9,539 nucleotides of DNA, taken from positions 1 through 9,539 of the forward strand of contig CAINUH010000435.1 in the NCBI GenBank assembly GCA_903853735.1, in the 5' to 3' direction. A program made the translations under genes and the position numbers. The stretch's first letter is position 1. Each line of letters begins with the position of its first letter. The stretch comes from an uncultured Desulfomonile sp. (lineage in GTDB: Bacteria > Desulfobacterota > Desulfomonilia > Desulfomonilales > Desulfomonilaceae). This document shows, piece after piece, positions 538-9,229 of the stretch. Below the pieces are notes generated by a model. That model worked only from the letters and a program-made list of their open reading frames with translations, searched no databases and was not told where the DNA came from.

Positions 538-571
538 GCCGTATTAGTCTGAGGGGAGGTATCGTATCGCC

Positions 572-799
572 GTGGACATCTGTAAAATCACCTATTGTGG
601 AGCTTGAAACTACAAACCCAGGGCCGCCGGACTGGCGGAAGATTTAAGAACAGAACTGGGAGTTCAATCAGAACTTGTTGAATCCAGTGGAGGAGTCTTT
701 GAGATTGAATATGGAGGCAAGCTCATTTTCTCAAAGAAAAAAGTGGGCCGCTTCCCGGAACACAGCGAGGTGGTGAACCTTATCAAGAAAGCTGAGTAA
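572..799 (+). CDS. SelW-like selenoprotein, Rdx (SelT/SelW/SelH) family, Sec encoded by in-frame TGA
   Basis: From GTG 572 the frame reads MDICKITYCGA, then TGA at 605-607 (codon 12), then NYKPRAAGLAEDL and onward to TAA 797-799, for 75 residues. C9-G10-A11-U12 is the CxxU redox motif of SelW. The surrounding YCGAU.YK, the later GGVFEIEYGGKL and SKKK (54-57) followed by GRFPE (59-63) are hallmarks of the bacterial Rdx family and of animal SelW (YCGAUGYK, GKLIHSKKK). The length is normal, so both sides of the TGA belong to one protein. The family adopts a thioredoxin-like fold and acts in cytosolic thiol/selenol redox chemistry; its exact substrate is not established. A stop (545-547) lies upstream in frame, and GTG is the only usual start before the TGA. 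GGAGG (555-559) is the ribosome site, with a rather long 12-base spacer. No standard start codon follows the TGA in a useful place, so ordinary gene calling would miss it. Confidence 0.93.
605..638 (+). promoter_or_regulatory. bacterial SECIS-like element: recoded TGA and downstream hairpin
   Basis: After the TGA (605-607) the mRNA can form a perfect five-pair GC stem, CCGCC (624-628) with GGCGG (634-638). The apical loop is GGACU (629-633). The loop begins 21 bases after the TGA and starts with GG. This agrees with the published description of bacterial SECIS elements: small apical loop, G in the first two loop positions, loop roughly 16-37 bases from the UGA. SelB with Sec-tRNA would bind here. 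An alternative weaker pairing, CCAG (618-621) with CTGG (632-635), exists. The folding was judged by eye. Confidence 0.75.
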
Positions 800-6208: not shown

Positions 6209-9200
6209 ATGATGTCAAGTACCGGCAGACGGATTCTCATGTGTTTAATAATGATCGTCAGTTTATCCGTAGGTCTGTCTATCTGGGGCCCCCCGGGGGT
6301 TGTTCAGGGATCGGAAGGCATCGCTCCTTCCCAGCTTGTATTGACTCAGGCAGACGGTAAGGATCAGCCGGTCAGCGCTTCAAAACTCTACGAAGCGATC
6401 TCCGGATATCTGGATGGGCTTCACGGCAAAGGCCTACAAGACGCAACTGAATTCTCCGGGACCAAAAAGGGGCAACGACGAGATTTGAGTGCAATGAGAT
6501 TGTTGGAAGGCGGAGATCGTGATACCCGGCAATTGTTGGAAAGAGACAGGGCCCTAGCCCGTTCGAGAATGAAACGCCAGGAGTGGGATTTGGCTCTTCA
6601 AACCCTTGAACGAGCCAAGAGAGAGGCATCAAGGATGGCATCAGCCGAGGACTTGGAAATAGTCCAGGATTTACAAAAGCTTATCAGAACAAAACTAAAG
6701 GAGGTTTCTCAAGACGGCCGTCCTTCAAAGGACGAGATGATTAATTCTATTGGTATGAGGTTGGTGGTCATTCCAGGGGGCACATTCACTATGGGAAGTT
6801 CTTCTGCGGAGATCCGGAGGATTCGAAATGAGTGGAATGTGGAAGAAGAAATTGTCACACGGGAATCTCCTGCTCACCGTGTTCAGGTTAGCAAGCCGTT
6901 TTTGATTGGGAAGTACGACGTAACGGTCGGGCAGTTCAAGACATTCGTGAATGAGACCGGATATCAAAGCGTCGCAGAAACTCAGGATGCGACGTGGGTT
7001 TATGATCATACGAAGAAGCACTGGATAAAAAAACCAGGCGTGTCTTGGAGAAACCCTGGGACCGAGGTTGGGGATGATCATCCTGTAACAATGGTCTGCC
7101 ATATTGACGCTGAGGCGTTCTGCGCCTGGTTGAGCAAACGGGATGGCAGAAAATACGAACTTCCTACAGAGGCCCAGTGGGAGTATGCAGCACGGGGGGG
7201 CAAAGAGGCGCAGCGTTTCCCGTGGGGCGATGAGTATCCTGACGGTAGAAAATTGAATTTAGCGGACCGGCGCTCACCCGTTCCGTGGGCGGACCGGACC
7301 GTTGACGACCATTACTCAGGCCCTTCACCAGTCGGGTGCTTCGATCCCAACGGATTTCGTTTGTACGACATGGCAGGAAATGTTTGGCAACTGTGCGCCG
7401 ACTATTTCGACCCAAAGGCGTACCAGGGCACGGCTTCGGGAGTCGCTATTGATCCCAAGGGCCCGCGCACCGGCAAAAAAAAGAGTGTGAGGGGTGGTAA
7501 CTGGGCTTTTGGAGCAGGCATTGCCAGGAATGCGTTTCGTTTCGGGATCGAACCGAACCTATGCACCGACTTATCAGGATTCAGGGTGGCAGCAGTGGCA
7601 CATCCCGATGATGATACGAATCAACTAAAGGGACAACCATCGTCGTACGGAAAATTGACTGATCTCAGTCAGGCCGAGGCATTGGCTGATCGCGTGAAGA
7701 AGCTTGTTTCGGGCGGACGACGACTGGAGGCACGACGCCTGGTAGACCAGTCGGGGCAAGCGGGTCAGAAAATTGCCGTGGACGATCCGGATGGCTTAGT
7801 AAAGGAAGTTTTGGCAACCCTGATCGATCTGTCGGAAGACTCAAGTGCTCAAACCTTCAACAATTCGTTAGGCATCAAAATGGTTCGCATACCGGCCGGA
7901 GCCTTTGTCATGGGCAGTTCTGAAGCGGATATCGCGTGGGCCATGACCACTTTGGCCCAGAACCAGCCGGTGTCACTAGAAAATGAATTTCCTTTCCACA
8001 AGGTGCGCATTTCCAGACCCTTTTTCATGTCAGCCACCGAGGTCACTGTCGGGCAGTTTCAGGCTTTCGTGGAAGCCACCGGATACATCACCGATGCTGA
8101 AGACGCAGGTGGCGGGCAGGTGTTCAACACGAAGAGCAACCGATGGGAACAAAAAGACGGGAGTTCGTGGAAGAGTCCGGGATGGACCATCACTCCGGAT
8201 CAGCCGGTGACAATAGTTTCCTGCAATGACGCCCAGGCATTTGTGGAATGGATCACTGCAAAGGAGAAGCTGCTGTACAGACTGCCCACGGAGGCGCAAT
8301 GGGAATATGCCGCTCGCGGAGGCTTGTTGATGACACAATTCCCATGGGGCGATGCGGTCCCTGATGGACTAAGGGCAAACTACGCGGACAAGAACACAGA
8401 CTTTGAGTGGAGAGACAGGGATGCAGACGATGGTTACAAACACGTCGCGCCCGTAGGGAGTTTTACTGCAAACGGATATGGCCTGCACGATATGGCCGGC
8501 AACGTAATCGAGTGGGTTAGAGACTATTATGGGGAAGATTATTACAGATTTACCCCAGAAGTCGATCCTGAGGGACCGGGCCACGGAGAAAACAGGGTGA
8601 CCAAGGGTGGAGACTGGTCTTCCGGAGCAGCGAGTCTCCGTTGTGCGTTCAGAGGCTGGTCGCGCCCCGACTTGGCTTTTAGTAATACCGGGTTCAGGGT
8701 TATCGTAGATACGGACAGCCCGCAACGGACGTTCTATTTCGATAATAATTTCCTGACCAAAGAATGGGTGCCCGGACCGGACCAGAGGGCTGTCACAGAG
8801 GCAATCGCTAAGGAGCAAGATCGGCGAATCAAACCTTTGCCTTCTCAGTCAAGTCCCGGAGCCAAGACGTCCGTGAGTGAAGCGCCCGCAATCAAAGGTG
8901 TTCAGGTTTTGGACTTAACGCCTAAATCCGATGCCAAGAAGGTTGGGCTGGCCAAAGGCGACATAGTCGTCGAATACAACGGTTTCCGAAACCTGACATC
9001 AGAGAGATTGCTGACACTTACCGCCCAAACCAAGAACGAAAAGACTAAGCCCATACTAATTTTCATCCGAGACGGATACGAGTACTCCGTCAGGGTAGCG
9101 CCGGGATACCTGGGCATTGCCGTCATGGACACTGCCGTGCGAGCCCCTTTTAAGAAATGGGAACCCCTCCCGGAACCAGTTCCTCGTGACGAAAAGAATA

Positions 9201-9229
9201 AGAAATCTAAATCACCACAGTGGACATAA
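6209..9229 (+). CDS. exported protein with two tandem FGE/SUMF1-fold domains and a C-terminal PDZ-like domain
   Basis: The 1006-residue product has a signal peptide (1-35), helical segments (about 105-170 and 484-545), two formylglycine-generating-enzyme-fold domains (about 179-463 and 549-834) and a PDZ-like domain (about 895-965, AKGDIVVEYNGF). Both FGE copies show the family marks: MGS near the start, VTVGQF, LPTEAQWEYAARGG (318-331, 692-705), PWGD, DMAGNV (387-392, 761-766) and terminal GFRV. Catalytic FGE carries two Cys in the segment after RGGS. Copy 1 has Phe434 and Ala439 there, copy 2 has Ser805 and Leu810, so neither should make formylglycine. The nearby C452 and C812 are not at those positions. 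It is probably a periplasmic binding or scaffold protein, as many non-catalytic FGE-fold proteins are thought to be. GGAGA precedes ATG 6209 by six bases. The ligand is unknown. Confidence 0.92.
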   Translation: MMSSTGRRILMCLIMIVSLSVGLSIWGPPGVVQGSEGIAPSQLVLTQADGKDQPVSASKLYEAISGYLDGLHGKGLQDATEFSGTKKGQRRDLSAMRLLEGGDRDTRQLLERDRALARSRMKRQEWDLALQTLERAKREASRMASAEDLEIVQDLQKLIRTKLKEVSQDGRPSKDEMINSIGMRLVVIPGGTFTMGSSSAEIRRIRNEWNVEEEIVTRESPAHRVQVSKPFLIGKYDVTVGQFKTFVNETGYQSVAETQDATWVYDHTKKHWIKKPGVSWRNPGTEVGDDHPVTMVCHIDAEAFCAWLSKRDGRKYELPTEAQWEYAARGGKEAQRFPWGDEYPDGRKLNLADRRSPVPWADRTVDDHYSGPSPVGCFDPNGFRLYDMAGNVWQLCADYFDPKAYQGTASGVAIDPKGPRTGKKKSVRGGNWAFGAGIARNAFRFGIEPNLCTDLSGFRVAAVAHPDDDTNQLKGQPSSYGKLTDLSQAEALADRVKKLVSGGRRLEARRLVDQSGQAGQKIAVDDPDGLVKEVLATLIDLSEDSSAQTFNNSLGIKMVRIPAGAFVMGSSEADIAWAMTTLAQNQPVSLENEFPFHKVRISRPFFMSATEVTVGQFQAFVEATGYITDAEDAGGGQVFNTKSNRWEQKDGSSWKSPGWTITPDQPVTIVSCNDAQAFVEWITAKEKLLYRLPTEAQWEYAARGGLLMTQFPWGDAVPDGLRANYADKNTDFEWRDRDADDGYKHVAPVGSFTANGYGLHDMAGNVIEWVRDYYGEDYYRFTPEVDPEGPGHGENRVTKGGDWSSGAASLRCAFRGWSRPDLAFSNTGFRVIVDTDSPQRTFYFDNNFLTKEWVPGPDQRAVTEAIAKEQDRRIKPLPSQSSPGAKTSVSEAPAIKGVQVLDLTPKSDAKKVGLAKGDIVVEYNGFRNLTSERLLTLTAQTKNEKTKPILIFIRDGYEYSVRVAPGYLGIAVMDTAVRAPFKKWEPLPEPVPRDEKNKKSKSPQWT

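Follow-up and report, generated by a model that had tools for sequence, protein, structure and literature searches.

Does the gap between two neighbouring open reading frames (ORFs) hold a gene whose internal TGA is read as selenocysteine (Sec), or is this TGA an ordinary stop? The gap lies in a stretch of DNA of 9,539 nucleotides, all of which was analysed and which we call the window; one of the flanking ORFs ends at 537 and the other begins at 930. A sequence-only reading had placed a 75-codon gene of the SelW/Rdx family here, and had predicted that annotation would leave 538-929 empty. On the window sequence the coordinates, the frame, the TGA at codon 12 and the motifs YCGA-U-NYK, GGKL, SKKK and GRFPE are all confirmed, and 538-929 contains no ORF of at least 60 aa. 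The features of the locus are collected in Table 1.

Table 1. Features of the selW-like locus, in window positions.
Feature	Position	Strand	Description
Probable selW-like selenoprotein gene	572..799	+	GTG start, TAA stop (797-799), 75 codons, TGA taken as Sec; matches to PF10262 and NF041051
In-frame TGA (UGA)	605..607	+	Codon 12, at the U position of CGAU (CxxU motif); also TGA in the best 80 of 461 related loci
Probable ribosome-binding site	552..559	+	AGGGGAGG, 12 nt before GTG 572; predicted from sequence
Bacterial SECIS hairpin	624..638	+	CCGCC 624-628, loop GGACT 629-633, GGCGG 634-638; 629 and 633 could add a sixth pair (G-U)

With TGA translated as U, the product runs VDICKITYCGA-U-NYKPRAAGLAEDL...GRFPEHSEVVNLIKKAE, and the residues of the CxxU motif are C9-G-A-U12. 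The GTG start is the sole ATG, GTG or TTG between an in-frame TAG (545-547) and the TGA. There is no second in-frame TGA, and the frame stays open up to the TAA. The first in-frame ATG, GTG or TTG 3' of the TGA is the GTG at 743, and gene callers that treat TGA as a stop would therefore probably miss this gene.

The read-through protein scores above the cut-off of three profiles for the family, Pfam Rdx (PF10262, 70 bits against a cut-off of 22.6), TIGR02174 (65.8 against 34.2) and NF041051 (98.6 against 88), which bears out its assignment to SelW/Rdx. Its sequence matches in the PDB include selenoprotein W (2npb, E 2.4e-5), to which it is homologous over residues 5-61 and which we take to be the mouse protein, and also Atu0228 (2fa8), which is of the Cys type. 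An AlphaFold model, built from an alignment of 19 sequences (pLDDT 86.4, pTM 0.69), places the CxxU between a strand (residues 3-9) and a helix (15-29), followed by three strands and two C-terminal helices. Most likely the protein has a thioredoxin-like fold and works as a small thiol/selenol oxidoreductase through its CxxU redox centre, the redox role being the part that we infer.

Is the TGA conserved? A genome scan with the alignment returned 461 stretches that encode a relative, and the best 80, which are the closest matches, were analysed. Because the pattern searched for lies 3' of the TGA, the scan did not select for this codon, and the codon at the site was placed by a motif that accepts any residue there. 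It is TGA in 80 of these 80 loci. A separate family search of 198 genomes, from the phylum of genome G001, found an Rdx gene in 31, with a TGA inside 28 of them and none inside the other 3. The codon at the CxxU site was TGA in all 27 of the TGA genes that were read, G102 being left out of the site reading. The two samples are not fully separate, L113 and L001 being one example of overlap and L110 and L009 another.

The closest loci also share a neighbourhood with the window. The order of upstream gene, selW, a gene for a zinc-ribbon protein, a dGTPase gene and mobA is common to the window and nine loci (L001-L009) from Desulfobacterota metagenome-assembled genomes (MAGs). Some of their contigs end too early, and in the flanks that are present we matched the upstream gene in 8 loci, the zinc-ribbon protein in 8, the dGTPase in 8 (68-79% identity) and mobA in 6. 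The record titles name one Desulfomonilaceae, two Desulfomonile and one Syntrophaceae, the rest being Deltaproteobacteria or Thermodesulfobacteriota. This gene order and these titles place the window near the L001-L009 group. The PpiC-type and FGE-type genes of the window were not found in the examined flanks of L001-L009, and no relative came up when viral contigs were scanned with the neighbouring dGTPase.

In comparison with the same nine loci, most substitutions fall on the third base of a codon, both before and after the TGA, a bias that is missing upstream of the start. For L001, the changes at codon positions 1/2/3 are 1/1/7 over the 9 codons that precede the TGA and 13/7/38 over the 58 that follow it, but 10/7/9 over 13 codons 5' of the start. 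L010 is more distant and lacks this pattern ahead of the TGA, its counts there being 6/5/6 over the 9 codons. A frame disrupted beyond the TGA in close relatives, which the sequence-only reading had named as the case that would count against it, was not seen in L001, L002, L004-L006 or L009, and the tblastn matches of L003, L007 and L008 reach query residue 72-75.

If UGA is read as Sec, a SECIS hairpin is expected in the mRNA. The candidate starts 16 nt 3' of the TGA, the place expected of a bacterial SECIS, and folds as CCGCC-GGACU-GGCGG at -9.5 kcal/mol. Neither the whole window nor 480-940 matched an Rfam family, and the single-sequence fold energy is not unusual (z of -0.99 for 64 nt, -1.44 for 23 nt and -0.56 for 37 nt). 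The case for the SECIS therefore rests on covariation. We aligned the hairpin in the best 80 of the 461 loci and the window, 81 sequences of which 80 are distinct. With the position of the six-pair stem held fixed, 467 of the 480 pair cells are formed in the distinct sequences. Shuffles in which codons were swapped among sequences that share the amino acid at each column form 434 ± 2.8 cells, and none of 2,000 reaches the observed 467, in a set of sequences that are related and hence not independent trials. For 34 of the 81 sequences, 98.5% of the cells pair, against 92.6 ± 0.7 in shuffles; sliding the partner strand gives pairing of at most 57.4%, and changes on both sides of a pair occur in 13 cells and affect three of the six pairs. 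In the phylum sample, all six pairs form in 21 of 27 TGA genes and five form in the other 6. The Cys homologues L097, L123 and L124 have 3, 2 and 3 of the six pairs, so that, unlike in the window, the stem is not formed.

The published bSECIS model, as given in the excerpted text of PMC13188914, allows an apical loop of 3-9 nt, a stem of 4-16 bp, a distance of 16-37 nt from the UGA and a minimum free energy of at most -7.5 kcal/mol. The window hairpin falls within all of these limits, with a loop of 5 nt (or 3), a stem of 5 bp (or 6), a spacing of 21 (or 22) and the energy given above. According to the same excerpts, the model also has a G in the first two loop positions, usually followed by G or U (PMC13188914). 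This G is present in the window loop GGACU, and G stands first in the 3-nt loop of all 80 distinct sequences. The base that follows it is more complicated. Read as a 3-nt loop, the window has G then A, and its GAC stands alone, the other 79 sequences having GTC (42), GTT (26), GGT (10) or GGC (1). Read as the 5-nt loop GGACU that the fold prefers, it has G then G. The SECIS of E. coli fdhF is similar to the window hairpin in that a short GC-rich stem, its apical loop containing G, follows the UGA, but its loop is GGUCU, where the window has GGACU.

What does this odd loop base mean? It is conceivable, but unlikely, that GGACU functions as a loop variant to which SelB has co-adapted. If this were true, the locus would offer a natural experiment on the loop bases that SelB requires, and the base could in any case be used to test SelB recognition. 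Alternatively, the window may hold a former selW in decay, in which a drift of the SECIS loop from U to A has weakened or abolished Sec insertion. Besides the unique loop, the truncation of the adjoining upstream gene relative to its homologues is in keeping with this, as it points to some loss, or to an assembly fault, in this neighbourhood. We nevertheless consider decay very improbable, given a stem that is fully paired, a first loop G that is kept, a frame interrupted by no TGA other than that at 605, and substitutions relative to L001-L009 that fall mostly at third positions.

A chance event, in which a Cys codon of an ordinary Cys-type Rdx gene became TGA by mutation or by sequencing error, has practically no standing. 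The window is a single sequence and Cys-type Rdx proteins do exist (3 of the 31 phylum genomes, and Atu0228, PDB 2fa8), but the idea is already refuted by the presence of TGA at this codon in 80 of 80 loci (the best 80 of 461) from many separate assemblies, and the TGA forms retain the SECIS stem, which the three Cys forms examined do not. Equally negligible is a true stop with a restart of a shorter protein downstream: family proteins in the databases are often truncated at the N-terminus (11 of 18 matches, e.g. P0008, from an NCBI source), but no in-frame ATG, GTG or TTG occurs from the TGA to the GTG at 743, conservation in this frame extends to the residues ahead of the TGA, and the other 7 matches are full-length with W at the Sec site, as translation of TGA as Trp would give, while C occurs there in none of the 18. 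The selW at 572-799 is a genuine gene whose UGA is most likely read as selenocysteine.

The machinery that such a reading needs can be looked for in related genomes. We compared the eight genomes that carry L001 and L003-L009 with 14 control genomes. Matches over the cut-off were found for selB in 8 of 8 relatives and 2 of 14 controls, for selA in 8 (one partial) and 1, and for selD in 8 (one partial) and 2. The family cut-off for tRNA-Sec is lax, with 5 of the 14 controls passing it, and ARAGORN was therefore used as a check. It confirmed the anticodon UCA in all 7 of the relatives with a tRNA-Sec, the eighth, G004, being without a confirmed one. We also examined 18 further genomes, chosen for spread from the best 80 loci, running ARAGORN on the best locus per genome (18 of 20 loci); selB passed the cut-off in 17 and a tRNA-Sec(UCA) was found in 16. 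Among the 31 phylum genomes with an Rdx gene, selB was over the cut-off in 26, that is, 24 of 28 with the TGA form and 2 of 3 with the Cys form. The missing selB or tRNA-Sec in some relatives is likely due to incomplete MAGs. By extension from these relatives, the genome of the window would itself carry the machinery and insert Sec at this codon. As a side observation, selD has an in-frame TGA of its own in seven of the eight related genomes (G001-G006 and G008), as a Sec-containing SelD would.

Support for a Sec codon in the CxxU motif, as proposed from the sequence, comes from the family match, the TGA in 80 of 80 loci (the best 80 of 461), the covarying SECIS and the presence of selA, selB, selC and selD in related genomes; these and the conserved frame are computational results. 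With high confidence, we read the locus as a selenoprotein gene of the selW/Rdx family, from a Desulfobacterota bacterium near the Desulfomonile-type MAGs, with UGA decoded as Sec. On this proposal the ribosome would start at the GTG at 572 and meet the UGA at 605, the mRNA hairpin would recruit SelB with Sec-tRNA(Sec), the UGA would be read as selenocysteine and translation would continue to the TAA, giving a protein of 75 residues whose redox centre is CxxU.

How does the gene compare with what is known? That SelW-like genes are known in some Deltaproteobacteria, as the sequence-only reading had stated, has been in print since 2005-2006, according to excerpts of PMC1088965 and PMC1794560. 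The Sec form of the family has thus been known for about twenty years, and the window gene is an ordinary further member. The excerpts of PMC1088965 name SelW-like, with 48 genes, as the most abundant selenoprotein family in the Sargasso Sea set. They describe CXXU and a bacterial SECIS, suggest a redox function and mention an interaction with glutathione. Those of PMC1794560 list SelW-like selenoproteins in Desulfotalea, Geobacter, Alkaliphilus, Desulfotomaculum and Symbiobacterium, and describe Cys homologues as few or none in Sec-using organisms. Our finding of selB in the genomes of two of the three phylum Cys genes agrees with the 'few' of that partial text. As far as these excerpts go (PMC1794560, PMC1088965), the bacterial family and the window gene have in common the domain, the UGA-coded CxxU, a SECIS directly downstream and the occurrence in Deltaproteobacteria; no difference of substance was found, the SECIS loop of the window having GA where G[G/U] is usual. 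In eukaryotes the SECIS is in the 3'-UTR, according to the excerpted PMC1088965, in contrast to the window, where it lies within the coding region. The Cys-type proteins (Atu0228, 2fa8, and those of L097, L123 and L124) are of the same family but have CxxC where the window has CxxU.

A literature search on SelW/Rdx and Desulfomonile found nothing on point among the records listed. The locus adds a well-supported selenoprotein to a lineage known here mostly from Desulfobacterota MAGs. It also illustrates how databases lose or garble such a gene, with 11 of 18 protein matches N-truncated and 7 carrying W at the Sec site. The hairpin, which lies at a fixed distance, is kept through synonymous sites and occurs in loci titled from many phyla, is a simple mark for finding members of the family.

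Some further loci deserve a comment. Six TGA forms of selW (L011, L018, L021, L028, L062 and L063) come from MAGs titled Cyanobacteria, Obscuribacterales/Obscuribacter, Melainabacteria and, in one case, Proteobacteria. A tRNA-Sec(UCA) is present in all six of these genomes and SelB is over the cut-off in five, the profile match of SelB being broken near position 50 in some of them. A literature search on selenocysteine and Melainabacteria found nothing on point among the records listed. Another locus, L118 (genome G119), has TGA at the Sec site plus an extra in-frame TAG. A pyrrolysine (Pyl) reading of this TAG is not supported; PylS is below the cut-off in G119, and a nonsense change or an assembly error is therefore likelier.

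Finally, the window has some features of its own beside selW. The upstream ORF (1-537, cut by the start of the window) matches a protein of 500-550 aa in the relatives that carries a Transglut_core domain, and the similarity ends near 375-387. The rest of this homologue, including the Transglut_core domain, was not found in the window, and the gene is truncated relative to its homologues by either a deletion or an assembly fault. A sigma-70-like promoter match, TTGAAA-17-TATAAT (11/12), is found just upstream of selW at 493-521, inside the non-conserved tail of this ORF. Further downstream, 6209-9229 encodes a protein of 1,006 aa with two FGE-sulfatase stretches. At residues 894-963 it has a weak match to a DegP model, far below the cut-off, which we take to be perhaps a PDZ-like stretch.
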